Shown in pieces: positions 6,793-64,000 of a stretch of DNA of 64,000 bases (its first letter is position 1; each line of letters begins with the position of its first letter). The stretch comes from Hyphomicrobium sp. (GTDB taxonomy: Bacteria > Pseudomonadota > Alphaproteobacteria > Rhizobiales > Hyphomicrobiaceae): assembly GCA_002928515.1 (NCBI GenBank), contig PERI01000001.1, positions 372,001 through 436,000 on the forward strand. Reading direction: 5' to 3'. The notes under the pieces were generated by a model that was given only the letters and a program-made list of their open reading frames with translations, did no database searches and was not told the origin of the DNA. Both the position numbers and the translations under genes were made by a program.

Positions 6793-7473
6793 CTAGGCTT
6801 TGCGCAGAATGGCGGATGCCCAATAGCCAAACGCGCTGCTGCGGAATTCAACCTGCAAACCCTTTTGCTGCGCTATGTCACGAACGACGGCTTCGAGTTC
6901 GCGTCGCGGCGTGACGCTGAAGCGCGCCAGCCATGCCAGCATCGCGCGGCGTGCTAAGCCCGGCATCGTGTCCATGCAACCGAAATCGACGATATGCAGT
7001 TCGCCGCCCGGCGTGAGATGGTCGCTGGCACGTGCAACGATGACCTGCCAATCGGGGATCATCGACAGCGCGTACGAAATAAAAATTCGGTCGAAGGATG
7101 CCCGGTCGAACATTTGCTTGGTGTCGAAGTTCGTCGCGTCGCCTTGAGCCAGTGCGATGCGATGGCTGTGGTTTGTCTTTGCAACCGAGCGCGCGGCTGT
7201 CTTCAACATTTCCGATGATATATCGAAGCCATAGAGCGAGACATTGCTAAAAGTGTTTGCGGCCTGGATCAAATTGCGGGCTGTGCCGCAGCCGATTTCA
7301 AGGATCGTTCCATCGCGTGGCGGTGACAAACCCGCGATCATATCGTTGCGGCCGAGCAGATAGTAGCGCCGCGTTACGTCATAGATATAGCGCTGATAGC
7401 GATAGATGTGGTCCATCGCGGCGGCGTGTTGGGTATCGCCGTGCGATGTTGCTTCATCGCTGTGACCTGACAT
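6793..7473 (-). CDS. btaB: Diacylglycerylhomoserine N-methyltransferase (BtaB-like)
   Basis: 226 residues. A class I SAM methyltransferase that should methylate diacylglyceryl-homoserine three times to give the betaine lipid DGTS. The N-terminus (MDHIYRYQRYIYDVTRRYYLLGRN, split: MDHIYRYQRYIYDVT then RRYYLLGRN) is the BtaB signature, followed by SAM motif I ILEIGCGTARNL and the acidic loop YGFDISSEML. The chosen ATG lies seven bases after the btaA stop; the open frame extends 50 codons upstream but only into btaA. It is the last gene of a plcP-like / btaA / btaB series on the minus strand. Family known; role here inferred from homology and order. Confidence 0.85.
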   Translation of the reverse strand: MSGHSDEATSHGDTQHAAAMDHIYRYQRYIYDVTRRYYLLGRNDMIAGLSPPRDGTILEIGCGTARNLIQAANTFSNVSLYGFDISSEMLKTAARSVAKTNHSHRIALAQGDATNFDTKQMFDRASFDRIFISYALSMIPDWQVIVARASDHLTPGGELHIVDFGCMDTMPGLARRAMLAWLARFSVTPRRELEAVVRDIAQQKGLQVEFRSSAFGYWASAILRKA

Positions 7474-7480
7474 GGGGTTC

Positions 7481-8725
7481 TTAAGCCGTCTTTGTGTAGA
7501 GGTGGAAGCCGCCATAAATCGCCGAGCGATCTTTGGCATAAATCTCAGCAGAGCGCTCTGCTTTGTAATCCCACTGTTCGAGGATCGCCTCTGAAACGCG
7601 ACCTGGGAGGATCGTTGCTGCACCCGCGGTGCGGAAAATCACTCTCGCGCCAGGACGTGCTGTGCGCGTAATTTCGCGCCACAATGCATTGAGTGTGGCG
7701 TCGTCCATCCAATCCTGTGCATCGAGCAATGTATAGCAGTCGAGACTTTCAGTGGGTTCGGCGGCCAAAAAGTGGATCATATTTTGCTGCAAGACTGTGA
7801 CGCGATTGACGCGTGCTTTCACGGCCATGAAGCCATCGCGCTGCAAGTAGGGTGGGCATGGTGCAGCATCGTTGGACGCGTAGCTTCGGCCGAAAGCTTG
7901 GCTGGCGAAATAGTTATCCTTGAGATCGAAGCTTGTGGCCAAGCGCTGTACGCGTTCACGTAGCACATCGACCATGGGACGCGCGCCGTAGTCGCACAGC
8001 GCATCGTATTGTGCGGGCGGGATGCCAAGTCCGAACAGTGACGCGCGCCGTGATGTGACCCACTTTACGATGGGACGGTCGAACAATGGTGCCAGTTCGC
8101 GGTCGAAAATCTCGCGTTGCTCGTCATGGGATTTTGCTGCGAGCATACGTGAGGGGTTGCCACCGAGTGCGCGCGCGGCCAAGTGGCCGGCTCCAATAAA
8201 GCGGCCGAGCATCCCATAGCGATAGAAGTTGCGCGCAAATCTCGTGATACGGCGGCGGCCGGTGTGATCGCGACCTTCCCAATAGGCGCGCGTCTGGCGG
8301 TCGAGATGCTGGGCGATCAGATCGTCGTAGAGACGCACGTTCCGCTTATCGCTGGCCGTGCCAAAAAATCGGAAGTAGGTTGCATGGTTTGGCAAATGCG
8401 TTGCGGCCGCCAATTTCAGACGCAATAGAGCAATGTGTGTGGCGTTGAGATCGACTGCGTAAACGTGCGAAGGGTTGGCGGTCAAATAACTCAAGGCATT
8501 GCAACCGCCTGACGCTATCACCATCACGCGGCTCGATGGAGTGATCTCAAGCGCTTCCATATCGGCGCGCGGATCTTCCCAAATCTGGGGATAAACCATC
8601 GAGCGGAAGGCAAACGTGAACGCACGCTCTAGCAATCCTTGTGAGCTCATGGCGCCGCTTTGATGAACGGCTTCGCGCAACAGGTCGGCAGTGCTTGGTG
8701 CAACGGCTCTAGCGGCGATTGTCAC
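7481..8725 (-). CDS. btaA: S-adenosylmethionine:diacylglycerol 3-amino-3-carboxypropyl transferase (BtaA, DUF3419)
   Basis: 414 residues from a GTG with GGAG about seven bases upstream; this avoids overlap with the preceding gene, unlike the longer open frame. BtaA transfers the aminocarboxypropyl group of SAM to diacylglycerol, the first step of betaine-lipid synthesis. DUF3419 features seen: FRSMVYPQIWEDPRADMEAL near residue 40, the SAM-binding VIASGGCNALSYL with VYAVDLNATHIALLRLK, and the C-terminal second half (ARVIFRTAG, IYGGFHLY). It sits 23 bases after the phosphoesterase gene and 7 before btaB, which suggests one operon. Confidence 0.88.
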   Translation of the reverse strand: MTIAARAVAPSTADLLREAVHQSGAMSSQGLLERAFTFAFRSMVYPQIWEDPRADMEALEITPSSRVMVIASGGCNALSYLTANPSHVYAVDLNATHIALLRLKLAAATHLPNHATYFRFFGTASDKRNVRLYDDLIAQHLDRQTRAYWEGRDHTGRRRITRFARNFYRYGMLGRFIGAGHLAARALGGNPSRMLAAKSHDEQREIFDRELAPLFDRPIVKWVTSRRASLFGLGIPPAQYDALCDYGARPMVDVLRERVQRLATSFDLKDNYFASQAFGRSYASNDAAPCPPYLQRDGFMAVKARVNRVTVLQQNMIHFLAAEPTESLDCYTLLDAQDWMDDATLNALWREITRTARPGARVIFRTAGAATILPGRVSEAILEQWDYKAERSAEIYAKDRSAIYGGFHLYTKTA

Positions 8726-8748
8726 GGGCGTCTCCAATGCTTGAATTG

Positions 8749-9555
8749 TTATGCGGCGTGAACCAATTGGCGTTGCGCTGGAACAGGTGCTGAGCGTGCT
8801 GCCATGATCTCTTTCCAGCGAATGATCTCGAAAACGCCATCGAAACGTTCGCCGATGGCGGTGCAGCTCTCGACCCAGTCGCCGCAGTTCAAGTAGTGGA
8901 TGTCGTCGATCATGCGGTCGTTGGCATGGTGGATGTGTCCACAAATCAGACCCTCAGCTTCGCGTCGGCGTGCTTCATGCGAGAGGGCGTCTTCGAATTC
9001 ACCGATGAAGTTGACCGCGCCTTTGACTTTCAGTTTGAGAAAGTTGGCGAGCGACCAGTGACCGAGGCCAAACATGCGGCGGCAAAAATTTAATGGGATA
9101 TTGAGGGCCAGGGCGACGTCATATGAGCGATCTCCGAGGAATGCGAGCCAGCGGGCATAACGCACAACGACGTCGAATTCGTCGCCGTGGAGAACCAAAT
9201 ACCGTTTGCCGTTTGCCGCTTCGTGGATTTCGTCGCGCCGGACTTCGATGCCGCCGAAGTTCATGCCGCAATAGTCACGCAAGCCATCGTCGTGATTGCC
9301 GGGAATAAACACGACGCGCGTGCCTTTGCGGACTTTGCGCAATATCTTCTGTAGGACGTCGTTGTGCGATTGCGGCCAATAAGGACCGCGCTTTACTTTC
9401 CAGAAATCGACGATATCGCCCACCAAATAGAGCGTTTCAGATTCCACGCTCTTCAGGAAATCCAACAGCGCTGGGGCTTGCGCGTTGCGCATGCCGAGGT
9501 GGATATCCGAGATGAACACCGTGCGATATTGAATGTCCGCGTCAGTCGTCGTCAC
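8749..9555 (-). CDS. plcP: Metallophosphoesterase, PlcP / UDP-2,3-diacylglucosamine pyrophosphatase-like
   Basis: About 268 residues from a GTG with GGAGGGG just upstream; an ATG 51 bases earlier is the alternative. Calcineurin-type two-metal phosphoesterase motifs appear in order: FISDIHLG, GDIVDFWK, IPGNHDD, LHGDEFD and CGHIHHA. The family includes LpxH and the phosphate-starvation phospholipase C PlcP of Sinorhizobium, which releases diacylglycerol from phosphatidylcholine. Placement directly before btaA, whose substrate is diacylglycerol, favours the PlcP role over lipid A synthesis, but that is inference. A related gene lies 5 kb away at 13911. Confidence 0.75.
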   Translation of the reverse strand: MTTTDADIQYRTVFISDIHLGMRNAQAPALLDFLKSVESETLYLVGDIVDFWKVKRGPYWPQSHNDVLQKILRKVRKGTRVVFIPGNHDDGLRDYCGMNFGGIEVRRDEIHEAANGKRYLVLHGDEFDVVVRYARWLAFLGDRSYDVALALNIPLNFCRRMFGLGHWSLANFLKLKVKGAVNFIGEFEDALSHEARRREAEGLICGHIHHANDRMIDDIHYLNCGDWVESCTAIGERFDGVFEIIRWKEIMAARSAPVPAQRQLVHAA

Positions 9556-9806
9556 ATGCCCCTCCGCAATGCTCATAGGAGACTGAGCCTGAGGGACCGG
9601 ATTCATATTGCAGGCGTGTGACGAAGCCGTGCGGCTCTGTGGCGGGTGTGCCGCAGCCCGGGGATAAGCGGATTTAAACTCCGTCGCGCTGGTTAATTTC
9701 TAGGATTGGCGGTTGAAAATTGAGCGTGGTGTGAGGCTCGCGCGTGCGCAATACGGCATCGTGCAATGTCGGGACACGGCGCATTCTGGAGTGACTATGG
9801 GATGGC

Positions 9807-13871: not shown

Positions 13872-13910
13872 CCGAATCCGATTTGTTGTGCTGCAAATCG
13901 GGGGGCTTTC

Positions 13911-14747
13911 GTGACCCAGGCTTTGGCGCAGAAAACCTATCGGACGCTGCTGCTTTCGGACCTTCATATCGGATCGTTCCGGTGCAAGGCCGACCGGCTT
14001 GCAGAGTTCTTGAGCCGCTGTCAGGCTGAGACAATCATTCTTGTTGGAGACGTGTTCGACTTCTGGAGTTTTCGCGGCGGCGGAACCTGGTCGTCCGATC
14101 ATGCTAAGCTGGTTGCATGGTTCCACGTTGCTGTGTGCAACGGATCTCGTCTCATCATCATTCCGGGCAACCATGATGCGGTGCTTGCCTCATTCTCTAG
14201 CCTCGACATTCCCGGTCTCGAATTTCATCATGAGTTCATTCATGAGACGGCCAACGGCGAACGGTTTCTTGTTGTTCACGGTCACGAGCACGATGACTTT
14301 TTAAATCAGTCCGAGCGCATTGCGCCGCTGCTGTGTTCGCTGTCCGAACGGATGTTCGGTGTTGTGAACTCAATCAAGCTGACTGAGCGTCGCTCACAAC
14401 ATGTCCGCCAGCGGTTTCGTGCGTCGTGGGTCTGGATGCGTCGCTCCATTGGCGGGGTCAACCGATCTGAACTCAGACTGATCTATGAAGCACGGCAGCG
14501 CCGCCTCGATGGTGTGATCTGCGGGCATACGCACCTGCCGGGCGATTTTGTTTTAGACGGCACGCGCTATCTGAACTGTGGCGATTGGGTCGGCAACTGC
14601 ACGGCGATTACGGAGTCGTGGTCAGGTGAGCTGGAGTTGCAGACGTGGCGCGATCAGCGCGATTGTTGTTCCACCGAAGCTGGACAGCACGTGCGTGCAA
14701 AGTTTTGGGACTGGCCTGAGGCTGCGTCAGCAAAGGCCACAACATGA
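13911..14747 (+). CDS. Metallophosphoesterase, second PlcP/LpxH-like paralogue
   Basis: 278 residues. The start is a GTG with a run of six Gs about four bases upstream. The two-metal phosphoesterase motifs are complete: LSDLHIG, GDVFDFW, IPGNHDA, VHGHEHD and CGHTHLPG. It resembles the gene at 8749 in motif pattern (NCGDWV, SCTAI / NCTAI near the end) but has a different insertion between VHGHEHD and CGHTHL. Its stop overlaps the start of an acyltransferase gene (ATGA), and that gene overlaps an N-acyltransferase gene, so its substrate is probably a lipid phosphoester. Whether it acts as phospholipase C or on another lipid cannot be told from sequence alone. Confidence 0.8.
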   Translation: MTQALAQKTYRTLLLSDLHIGSFRCKADRLAEFLSRCQAETIILVGDVFDFWSFRGGGTWSSDHAKLVAWFHVAVCNGSRLIIIPGNHDAVLASFSSLDIPGLEFHHEFIHETANGERFLVVHGHEHDDFLNQSERIAPLLCSLSERMFGVVNSIKLTERRSQHVRQRFRASWVWMRRSIGGVNRSELRLIYEARQRRLDGVICGHTHLPGDFVLDGTRYLNCGDWVGNCTAITESWSGELELQTWRDQRDCCSTEAGQHVRAKFWDWPEAASAKATT

Positions 14748-15550
14748 TGATTGCCCCCAATCAACTAGCGCTTGACTGTAACAATGAGCGTGACGCGCTT
14801 GCGACGGCGCCGTTTCTCAATACGCACGCGCTTCTGTCCTTGCCTCTTCCGGAACTCCATTTTGGAGACAGATGTTTACTCCGCAGCGTTGGCTTTACGT
14901 TATGTCGCAACGTGCGCACTGTGCGCGGTCTGGAGCACGTTGGGATCGATCGCGATCCGTTTATACTCGCGATCAACCACAGCACGCGGCTAGAGGCGTT
15001 AGTATTACCAGCGCTCCTGATGTTGTTGCGCGGCGGACGTCGGGTTCATTTCCTGGCCGATTGGAATTTTCGGATCATTCCGGGTGTCGGGCTGCTCTAC
15101 AGCCGTTCAGGCGCGATTACTGTTATGCGCAAATCGGCCAAGCCACGTTTTCTCAATCTGCTGAAACCGTTATTTTCTTCGCCGACCTCGTCGGCGGAGC
15201 AAGCACGGCAACACCTTATTAGCGGTCGCTCCATCGGCATATTTCCCGAAGGCACAGTCAATCGTGATCCTAACCGATTGTTGCGCGGCAGACTTGGTGC
15301 AGCGCGGCTCTCTTTAGAAACCGGAATTGCCGTTGTGCCCGCCGGACTGCGATTTCCGGATATGGCTCGCGGCGAAGTCATTCCTGAGGCCAGCCCCATG
15401 GACATCTCGTTTGGGCCGCCGCTGGAACCGTCGTCTGCCATGACGCTTCCAGCGTGGCATGCGGCGATCATGACGGCGATCAGCGCTGTGTCTGGAAAGT
15501 CCTGGAACCATCAAAGGCTGGACCCTTCAAGGGGAGGAGACGTGCTGTGA
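14744..15550 (+). CDS. PlsC-like lysophospholipid/1-acylglycerol-phosphate acyltransferase family protein
   Basis: 268 residues. The acyltransferase block I is NHSTRLE at residues 78-84: the catalytic His is present, but the usual HX4D aspartate is Glu. Block III FPEGT is intact at 167-171. The core region AINHS ... ADWNFRIIPGVGLLYSRSG is typical of the PlsC fold. There is no clear membrane helix; a hydrophobic stretch lies near 84-96. It overlaps both neighbours by 4 bases. O-acylation of a lipid or acyl-amino acid is likely; the acceptor is unknown. Confidence 0.82.
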   Translation: MMIAPNQLALDCNNERDALATAPFLNTHALLSLPLPELHFGDRCLLRSVGFTLCRNVRTVRGLEHVGIDRDPFILAINHSTRLEALVLPALLMLLRGGRRVHFLADWNFRIIPGVGLLYSRSGAITVMRKSAKPRFLNLLKPLFSSPTSSAEQARQHLISGRSIGIFPEGTVNRDPNRLLRGRLGAARLSLETGIAVVPAGLRFPDMARGEVIPEASPMDISFGPPLEPSSAMTLPAWHAAIMTAISAVSGKSWNHQRLDPSRGGDVL

Positions 15551-16203
15551 AAATTTTAAATCTGACACGTGCGCGCCGCGTTGAAACCGAGACCGATCGG
15601 CAAAAAGCACTTTCGGTTTTGAAAGAAACTTACCAGCATGAAAAAGCATGGGTTCTCGACGTCGAGCCCATGTTTCCAGCGAGCGATTTACAGCGGGGTG
15701 ACGTGTCTTGGTTTCTCGCCATGAGCCGCGACAAGCCTGTGGGTGTTTTACGCGTACTCTACAATCCACCTTTGGAACAGTATGCCAGCTATGGATTGAA
15801 ACCGATCAGTGACGACGTCGATCTCGATGAGCTTATCAAGAGCAAGGACGTCGCTGAGATTGGCCGTTTTGCCATTGTACCAGAGCGGCGCAAGGGCATA
15901 GGTGTCGTGACTAGTTTGATGCGCGCGACCATGCGCGAAGTGATCGAACGTGGGTATGCGCAGCTCGTCACGGATGTGTTCGAGAATGATCCACACAGTC
16001 CCTATGGTTTCCACACGCGTATCGTCGGTTTCCGCCCTGTCGCCACTCACGAAGTTGGTGAATTGCGCTATATCGGGCGACGCATCACGCTCGTGCTCGA
16101 TATCAAGAAGGCGTACCAAACTTTGAAAGCCAGCGGGAACATGTTCTTCCGCAGTATCACCAAGGGCTGGTCAGCGGGCATGCATAAGCGCTTGGCCGCT
16201 TGA
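15547..16203 (+). CDS. GNAT-fold N-acyltransferase, FeeM / N-acyl amino acid synthase-like
   Basis: 218 residues from a GTG overlapping the previous stop (GTGA), with GGGGAGGAG about eight bases upstream. The layout matches long-chain N-acyl amino acid synthases and autoinducer-synthase-like GNATs: an N-terminal region (YQHEKAWVLD), VSWFLAMSRDKPVGVLRVL, then EIGRFAIVPERRKGIGVVTSL, which carries the acyl-CoA/ACP-binding RRKGIG, and FENDPHSPYGFHTRIVGF. Such enzymes acylate the amino group of an amino acid or small amine. With a PlsC-like enzyme beside it, the pair parallels OlsB/OlsA of ornithine lipid synthesis, but this protein is not OlsB by its motifs. Product unknown. Confidence 0.72.
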   Translation: MKILNLTRARRVETETDRQKALSVLKETYQHEKAWVLDVEPMFPASDLQRGDVSWFLAMSRDKPVGVLRVLYNPPLEQYASYGLKPISDDVDLDELIKSKDVAEIGRFAIVPERRKGIGVVTSLMRATMREVIERGYAQLVTDVFENDPHSPYGFHTRIVGFRPVATHEVGELRYIGRRITLVLDIKKAYQTLKASGNMFFRSITKGWSAGMHKRLAA

Positions 16204-62994: not shown

Positions 62995-63861
62995 CTAAGC
63001 GGCTTGACCCATCGCGTCAGCTCGGTCTTCGAGACGGTCTCTGACTATATCAAGAGGCATACGAATGTCGGCAATCGGTAACACAGCGCTGCGCAGACGC
63101 GATCGCAAGATTGCGCGCCGGCCATTGTATGCTGCAATGGGTGCAACAGACGATGTTGGTTGGCTCTGATAAGCCAAGGCGCTGTCTTGCGAGGCCGACG
63201 CATCAGCGCTGATTGCGGATCGTGCGACGGTAGGCATCAGTGTTTCGCAAGCGACGCCTTCTGCCAGGATCACATCATGGGTGGCTAATTCAATATGGTG
63301 ATAGTCGATACTGGTGACGTCAATGGGCATTTCGACCGTAATTGAAACGCCATTAATCAAGCTCGAAATAGGGATTAGCAAACCATCGATGTACAAAGCG
63401 TGGTTGCGAGAAATAAATAAGTCGCGCTTGGGAGTTGCAAAGCCCAATGCACCCCTTTTAATTCTAACCGGGAGGACGCTTTCAGCCCACGTGGCATCTG
63501 TCGCGGCGAAAAATTTGGTCTGCGTTATACTTTTGATTGATCGCTCCTGACCACTCAACGTCAAAATCAGGTCGCCGGTACATAATTCACTGACATCACG
63601 CTCGCCATTTGGCGTTTGAACGAACGTCCCCGCCAGAAAACACTTATGATCTGTTGGTGGCGTTGGGGGTGTACGTGGCCGAAATCTACGGAGAAGATCG
63701 AAAATGGAAGCTTCGGCACGTGTAGGAACCATAGCTGCGCCAACGAGGGCAATTGCGGCTGCAAAATTGCGACGCGACACTGCCAGCGCCTTATTTTTCT
63801 CTGTGCCTTCACTTTGTGTAGACGGCAATTCAGGATTCTGCACGGTACAATCCCCACTCAT
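62995..63861 (-). CDS. Tat-type exported Hint-domain protein
   Basis: 288 residues from the ATG of MSGDCTVQNPELP; a TTG six bases earlier is less likely. A twin-arginine signal (SRRNFAAAIALVGAAMVP) lies at about residues 29-46. A Pro-rich linker leads to a Hint domain: CFLAGTFVQTPNGERDVSEL with the N-terminal Cys, GDLILTLSG, ISRNHALYIDGLLIPISSLI and IDYHHIELATHDVILAEG. A helical tail of about 80 residues follows. Hint domains self-cleave or ligate in hedgehog and inteins; in bacteria they process surface proteins. Role here unknown. Confidence 0.82.
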   Translation of the reverse strand: MSGDCTVQNPELPSTQSEGTEKNKALAVSRRNFAAAIALVGAAMVPTRAEASIFDLLRRFRPRTPPTPPTDHKCFLAGTFVQTPNGERDVSELCTGDLILTLSGQERSIKSITQTKFFAATDATWAESVLPVRIKRGALGFATPKRDLFISRNHALYIDGLLIPISSLINGVSITVEMPIDVTSIDYHHIELATHDVILAEGVACETLMPTVARSAISADASASQDSALAYQSQPTSSVAPIAAYNGRRAILRSRLRSAVLPIADIRMPLDIVRDRLEDRADAMGQAA

Positions 63862-64000
63862 ATGCAACTGAAGATACGATACGTATCAATTCTAATAAAG
63901 TGTTTTATTATAGCGTGTTGTGGTCTGTAGTTCAATTCATTTGGCATGTCTGAGAGTGACTGGGTCGGGATTAACCTTGGGTTGCTTCTTTCGCATTGGT
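63862..64000. other. Right edge, upstream of the Hint gene
   Basis: 139 bases, AT-rich (TTCTAATAAAGTGTTTTATTATAG nearby, quoted in part: AATAAAGTGTTTTATTATAG). AATAAAGTGTTTTATT is close to a palindrome (AATAAA / TTTTATT) and could belong to the promoter of the Hint gene. No gene start is visible. Confidence 0.4.

Follow-up and report, generated by a model that had tools for sequence, protein, structure and literature searches.

A 64,000-nucleotide stretch of the Hyphomicrobium sp. genome GCA_002928515.1 (contig PERI01000001.1, positions 372,001 to 436,000; here called the window) carries three consecutive genes, for a phosphoesterase, a PlsC-like acyltransferase and a GNAT-fold acyltransferase that resembles FeeM. 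The last two of these form a conserved pair: the PlsC-like gene adjoins the GNAT gene on the same strand in 25 of the 27 genomes in which we found the GNAT, upstream in 24 of them and downstream, in swapped order, in one (G159). By analogy with known aminolipid pathways, we consider it an evenly balanced proposition that the pair is a two-enzyme lipid module, in which acylation by the GNAT would be followed by O-acylation by the PlsC-like enzyme to yield a two-chain, phosphorus-free lipid. The phosphoesterase, on the other hand, looks like a lineage-specific neighbour outside the conserved core.

The trio and its junctions lie as follows.

13911-14747, plus strand: two-metal phosphoesterase of the LpxH/PlcP-like kind, 278 aa (Pfam Metallophos match)
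14744-15550, plus strand: PlsC-like (LPLAT) acyltransferase with HX4E and FPEGTV, 268 aa (PF01553, 7.1e-17)
15547-16203, plus strand: FeeM-like GNAT, 218 aa, GTG start (FeeM as top solved fold, weak GNAT/FeeM family match)
14744-14747, plus strand: ATGA, stop of the phosphoesterase gene overlapping the ATG start of the PlsC-like gene (from the sequence)
15547-15550, plus strand: GTGA, stop of the PlsC-like gene overlapping the GTG start of the GNAT gene (from the sequence)

A preliminary description of this DNA had proposed three genes joined by four-base overlaps, and the three same-strand reading frames sharing ATGA and GTGA agree with it. The family assignments also stand: Metallophos and Metallophos_2 for the first protein, PF01553 with HX4E for the second, and for the third a GNAT whose top fold is FeeM and whose match to the FeeM Pfam family lies below the cut-off. 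The GNAT start is taken as the GTG at 15547 (218 aa), directly preceded by AGGGGAGGAG, because the start at 15454 in the list of open reading frames (ORFs) would overlap the PlsC-like gene by about 100 bases. The G+C content of the trio is ordinary (0.556 versus 0.551, standard deviation 0.021), and the genome as a whole spans 2.92 Mb in 20 contigs. Directly before the phosphoesterase start, at 13878-13901, lies an inverted repeat, CCGATTTG-N8-CAAATCGG, which is a possible operator but may be due to chance.

A conserved pair of acyltransferase genes

Homologues of the GNAT were sought in several genome samples; G000 denotes the window's own genome, other G numbers the surveyed genomes, and L numbers the extracted loci. 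In the family sample, 9 of 99 genomes gave matches at E <= 0.001, one of which (G097, E 1.4e-4, 27% identity) was weak and was dropped as lying outside the GNAT family. The order sample gave 2 of 297 genomes at 1e-10, one of them new, and the phylum sample, at least part of which had been drawn earlier, 1 of 398 at 1e-15, namely the window's own. Among the Chromatiales, the order of Imhoffiella, there were matches in 6 of 119 genomes (three new); in the phylum of the Acidobacteria metagenome-assembled genome (MAG), in 9 of 247 (eight new); and in the phylum of the Bacillota MAG, in 1 of 249, that MAG itself. Named GTDB contigs supplied seven loci, titled Hyphomicrobium, Imhoffiella purpurea, Thiococcus pfennigii, Rhodovulum sp. 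PH10, Chromatiaceae, Bacillota and Acidobacteria. The resulting 27 genomes belong to alphaproteobacteria, Chromatiales and Acidobacteriota, with one MAG (G746) titled Bacillota. No match at 1e-5 was found among 72,556 plasmid records. The GNAT is single-copy in the window genome (one match at E <= 0.001), and its closest relative, at 67%, comes from a MAG with the title Hyphomicrobium, which also has the gene order around an OlsB-like gene in common with the window genome. Because the spread of the GNAT is patchy, it suggests horizontal transfer or much loss.

The two genomes that depart from the pairing are G746, where the contig begins 263 bases before the GNAT gene, and G866, where the best match within 13 kb was no better than E 0.005. 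In the 25 pairs, the distance matrices of the two proteins are correlated (r 0.77), and none of 2000 permutations, uncorrected for species history, reached as high a value. In one genome of the Acidobacteriota sample (G879, L101:5010-6620) both domains stand in a single frame of 536 aa: PF01553 covers 65-206, the GNAT matches begin at 333, and the GNAT part is preceded by a Met. The single frame could still be an assembly error. The claim that the three genes form a unit thus survives for the PlsC-like/GNAT pair, through the adjacency, the one fusion and the correlated divergence, and fails for the phosphoesterase, which adjoins the pair in 2 of the 27 genomes. The preliminary description had held that its proposal would fall if homologues of the three genes never occurred together in other genomes; on this point the outcome is split, all three recurring in one other genome (G042) and the two acyltransferase genes in 25 of 27. 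As a separate observation, in G741, the nearest relative, the PlsC-like gene (L010:725-1534) has an in-frame stop, and is either a pseudogene or affected by an assembly error.

Kinship of the two acyltransferases

The preliminary description held that the GNAT does not look like OlsB, and this is supported. Its Pfam matches are GNAT (PF00583, 1.1e-4) and FeeM (PF21926, 1.2e-4); its score against the OlsB-type family PF13444 is 13.9 bits, under the cut-off of 22.4, and against the PEP-CTERM/exosortase acyltransferase TIGR03694 11.6 bits, under 111.95. In an alignment of 15 of the 27 known relatives, all 15 match PF21926 at E <= 1 (best 1.5e-8) and 13 match PF13444 (best 0.0011). In rough profile comparisons, the GNAT finds the genome's own PF21926 protein, entered as a single sequence, with a probability of 95.9 (E 5.4e-9), and four OlsB-type proteins with 39.1 (E 3.1e-4). 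The AlphaFold2 model is confident (predicted local distance difference test score, pLDDT, 91.7), and the first of its 542 PDB fold matches at E <= 0.001 is FeeM (2g0b_A; E 4.8e-9, TM-score 0.68 normalised to the query and 0.78 to the target). The RxxGxG/A loop, which we take to be the acetyl-CoA-type loop, occupies the aligned position in 2 of 26 GNATs (G000 and G741; the sequence from G066 is cut there); this loop, HX4E and the residue at R159 discussed below were all read from aligned columns. Elsewhere, the window genome has a FeeM-family protein proper (L072:2339-3118, G000:C2; PF21926 3.8e-30), with no PF01553 match of the genome nearby.

The PlsC-like enzyme has its HX4E motif as NHSTRLE, and HX4E is found in 25 of 25 partners. 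Three other PF01553 proteins are present in the genome: a probable housekeeping PlsC with HX4E and FPEGTR, a long protein with HVSLLD and FPEGRL, and an OlsA-like protein with HX4D and FAEGTS. The operon enzyme is thus, judging from its sequence, distinct from both the likely housekeeping PlsC and the OlsA-like protein. Its score against the PlsC family TIGR00530 is 43 bits, under the cut-off of 102.95, and in a tree the 25 pair enzymes lie on one side of a split, with the probable PlsC and three OlsA-type proteins on the other (97/97, with bootstrap values unsettled and long branches).

The sequence difference most relevant to function concerns an arginine. R159 of PlsC is believed to hold the phosphate group of lysophosphatidic acid (LPA), and the sulfur aminolipid O-acyltransferase SalA has Val there (PMC8319176). 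In a profile match to PlsC (5KYM, 3e-7), a valine of the window protein is aligned with R159; among the 25 partners the residue is V in 21, I in one and R in three, and in three OlsA-type proteins it is T, T and S. The three partners of the R type (G747, G879 and G922) form one cluster in the PlsC tree (99/99) and, joined by G746, another in the GNAT tree (99/98, with a long-branch warning). There may be two subfamilies, the R-type one perhaps with another acceptor.

Among known systems, OlsB-OlsA and related aminolipid synthases also have neighbouring genes for a GNAT-fold protein and a PF01553 O-acyltransferase, and share the two-step logic expected here. They differ in that the window GNAT is FeeM-like and below the cut-off of PF13444, and in that the OlsA-type proteins of G026, G059 and the window genome have HX4D with FPEGTT or FAEGTS, whereas the pair enzyme has HX4E with FPEGTV. 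FeeM and the Nas N-acyl amino acid synthases are likened to the GNAT by its top fold and weak family match; further O-acylation of their products had, by the account of a review, gone unreported (PMC11631085), whereas the GNAT has an adjacent PlsC-like partner in 25 of 27 genomes. SalA, by its published description, shares the Val of most pair enzymes at the R159 position (PMC8319176), but has HX5D instead of HX4E, and the N-acyltransferase of its pathway is given as not known in the same review (PMC11631085). The fused ornithine lipid synthase OlsF has its O-acyl domain first and its N-acyl domain last in one chain, as does the G879 protein; its N-terminus is assigned to PF19576 in that review (PMC11631085), as against PF01553 in G879.

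The phosphoesterase and the wider neighbourhood

The phosphoesterase is a clear member of its superfamily (Metallophos_2 1.7e-12, Metallophos 3.6e-12), and the motifs DxH, GD, GNHD, H and GHxH, which are presumably metal ligands, are invariant in a 13-row alignment. Its AlphaFold2 model (mean pLDDT 72.8) is poor in the middle section, and the best 19 PDB matches in a fold comparison of this model are all LpxH; its score against the LpxH family TIGR01854 is 27.5 bits, under the cut-off of 190.35. The window also encodes a second, PlcP-like phosphoesterase, with the following gene set around it.

8749-9606, minus strand: PlcP-like phosphoesterase, 35% identical to the trio phosphoesterase over 253 columns
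7481-8944, minus strand: btaA-like gene for a DUF3419 protein (PF11899, 7.3e-111)
6793-7623, minus strand: btaB-like methyltransferase gene (from the ORF and Pfam annotation of the window)

The names btaA (for the DUF3419 protein) and btaB (for the methyltransferase) are ones we assume for these families. This betaine-lipid set, at 6793-9606, lies 4.3 kb from the trio on the opposite strand, and had gone unmentioned in the preliminary description. It resembles a published plcP-btaA-btaB arrangement for betaine lipid (PMC4796936).

The trio phosphoesterase shares the catalytic core and invariant motifs with PlcP, but differs in its middle section and in adjoining the PlsC-like and GNAT genes rather than btaA. 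Because its middle section shares 9% identity with that of the PlcP-like protein, and the core on either side 40% and 49%, the two likely act on different substrates. At 1e-20, matches to the phosphoesterase occur in 87 of the 99 family genomes, 82 of them single-copy and five two-copy (G000, G042, G003, G027 and G043). A tree of 31 rows was built from the trio phosphoesterase, the window's PlcP-like protein and, out of 91 further places listed, the 29 that had loci; in it the trio phosphoesterase and a copy from G042, each at the end of a very long branch, stand apart from the remaining 29 rows, the PlcP-like clade (98/94).

A phosphoesterase of this kind adjoins the pair in G000 and G042, heading it in the latter, so the idea of a conserved three-gene pathway was rejected, and the place given to the phosphoesterase in it is not upheld. 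Upstream room is limited to less than 1 kb in G741, G945 and G1102, to about 1.5 kb in G1086 and to nothing in G746; in all of these the gene could lie farther away. The GNAT tree places G000, G741 and G042 in one group (93/82, less than the tool requires for firm support), so a simple account is one gain of the phosphoesterase followed by loss in G741. In the Bacillota MAG (L015:264-2027), the GNAT gene is followed after 18 bases by one for a different type of metallophosphoesterase (357 aa; Metallophos_2 score just below the cut-off).

A link to phosphate starvation had been entertained as well and found no support in a scan with CTGTCATNNNNCTGTCAT, the form of the Pho box that we assumed: this single pattern, allowing up to three mismatches, occurs 8 times in the window, where 4.0 occurrences would be expected, and never upstream of the trio or the plcP-like gene. 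A promoter scan gave 2 sites against 1.4 in shuffled sequence, none ahead of the trio, and a terminator scan 2 against 3.1. Around the 27 loci, the neighbour clusters recognised, besides GNAT, PlsC and antisense frames, were a DUF218 gene (4 loci), a heavy-metal ATPase (3 loci, 1 checked) and genes common to close relatives. The DUF218 gene is convergent after the GNAT gene at L100:6679-7560, with similar ORFs in L095, L096 and L099. Phototrophy was recorded in 5 of 6 pair carriers and 40 of 113 non-carriers among the Chromatiales (p 0.028, uncorrected for kinship), and in 3 of 8 pair carriers and 4 of 20 controls of our own choosing in the window's family (p 0.31); the association is weak. 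The window genome itself has two photosynthetic reaction-centre genes (G000:C2:71869-73536). At the far end of the window, the ORF at 62995-63867 (minus strand), which contains a Hint domain (PF13403, 1.9e-36), adjoins a run of genes that, judged by eye, is of polysaccharide type.

Possible products of the pair

Ornithine lipid is made by acylation by OlsB and then by OlsA, and the pair may follow the same two-step logic. The FeeM-like GNAT would take a fatty acyl chain, probably 3-hydroxyacyl delivered by acyl-carrier protein, and attach it to a small polar acceptor, for which the amine of an amino acid or a related compound is the likeliest candidate; the product would have a single chain. 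The PlsC-like enzyme would then link a further acyl chain by an ester bond to the hydroxyl group of that chain, completing a two-chain, phosphorus-free lipid. As a guess, the phosphoesterase might strip phosphate from the acceptor precursor or from competing lipids. We infer the order of steps, the donor and the amine head group from FeeM, OlsBA and SalA.

Several observations weigh against this reading. The neighbours of the 27 loci (the 40 largest ORF clusters, partly annotated) give no hint of a head group. The score of the GNAT against PF21926, 22.4 bits, is under the cut-off of 27; sequence-level PDB searches found no relative of it; and ordinary acetyltransferases follow close after FeeM in the fold search (PaiA, 1tiq, 1.1e-8), many of the 542 matches sharing the general GNAT fold. 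The window GNAT itself carries the acetyl-CoA-type loop, as RRKGIG, and in the G879 fusion the GNAT part finds PF13444 (7.3e-4, below the cut-off) but not FeeM at 0.01. HX4E was rejected as a hallmark of the pair enzyme, since the probable housekeeping PlsC has it too; the three partners that keep the arginine include the fusion; and shared species history may contribute to the correlated divergence of the 25 pairs. PF13444 proteins, moreover, coexist with the pair in 10 of the 16 pair genomes tested, and G026 and G059 have adjacent OlsB-OlsA-like pairs besides. Because of this coexistence, the product is probably something other than plain ornithine lipid. The window genome has OlsB-like (L071:2371-3387) and OlsA-like (L106:1324-2196, G000:C2) genes of its own, about 15 kb apart and non-adjacent.

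The main and serious rival is a sugar lipid, which we hold to be improbable, though the least so of the alternatives. Here the GNAT would transfer a 3-hydroxyacyl chain by O-acylation to a sugar or sugar phosphate, the PlsC-like enzyme would add the second chain and the phosphoesterase would remove the phosphate, as in GlcABC of Rouxiella badensis, so that all three window genes would be accounted for. In the paper on that system, an operon with the same kinds of gene (GNAT, PlsC-like and phosphatase) yields a glucose dilipid in Escherichia coli, mainly mono-acylated glucose is made without glcB, and the authors infer that the phosphatase is absolutely needed (PMC12299268). An aminolipid is thus not the sole fit to a gene set of this make-up, and GlcA and GlcB, as described there, add to the points against one in showing glucose to be a possible acceptor for a pair of this sort (PMC12299268). 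The overlap coupling of the phosphoesterase in the window, and the LpxH/PlcP-like gene at the head of the pair in G042, also suit a sugar lipid. By the same paper's description, however, the gene order differs, GlcC is a HAD phosphatase and GlcA a RimL-type GNAT nearest PA3944, as against a metallophosphoesterase with no HAD match and a FeeM-like GNAT in the window (PMC12299268). No phosphoesterase of the trio kind, furthermore, was present in the examined stretch at 25 of the 27 pair loci.

Phospholipid remodelling, which we regard as rather less probable still, would make the phosphoesterase a second PlcP and the PlsC-like enzyme a re-acylator of lysolipids, with the GNAT unrelated or modifying something else. 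The PlcP-like core of the phosphoesterase and its identity with the window's own PlcP-like protein are in keeping with this, as are the btaA- and btaB-like genes 4.3 kb and more away. Yet the phosphoesterase lies outside the PlcP-like clade, with its dissimilar middle section, the PlsC-like enzyme is without the arginine for the LPA phosphate, and the GNAT and PlsC-like genes are paired without such a phosphoesterase in 23 genomes.

Close behind, and similarly doubtful, comes a diffusible or envelope N-acyl amino acid made by the GNAT in the manner of FeeM, with the PlsC-like enzyme making an unrelated lipid or esterifying the signal. FeeM is the top solved fold, and bacterial GNATs of its kind make N-acylated amino acids according to the review (PMC11631085), but the consistent adjacency and the fusion favour a joint product, and no signal-receptor gene was recognised among the recurring, partly annotated neighbours. 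Least probable is acylation of lipid A or another envelope amino sugar by an LpxH-like phosphoesterase, an LPLAT and a GNAT, for which the LpxH fold matches, the lipid A enzymes that the same review places in the LPLAT family (PMC11631085) and a family-2 glycosyltransferase adjoining the pair in G059 and G034 could be cited, but the phosphoesterase scores far below the LpxH cut-off, the glycosyltransferase is limited to those two close relatives, and one host is titled Bacillota.

Returning to the two-enzyme lipid module, its known part would be the two-step synthesis of an acyloxyacyl lipid, and its new part the GNAT branch. No title or abstract opening describing a FeeM-like/PlsC-like pair was found in our literature search, outside which subscription papers lay. 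Tentatively, and with more doubt than for the module itself, we suggest that a second route to acyloxyacyl aminolipids may have evolved separately, in which FeeM-class GNATs were recruited together with an LPLAT mostly of the Val type, and once joined to it. Such a route would carry an undescribed head group and be patchily distributed in alphaproteobacteria, Chromatiales and Acidobacteriota, often beside OlsB in the same genome. Since the two genes are adjacent in 25 of 27 genomes, the lipid question is directly testable with these two alone. If the proposal is true, the pair would represent a class of membrane lipid that genome surveys based on OlsB (PF13444) could miss.

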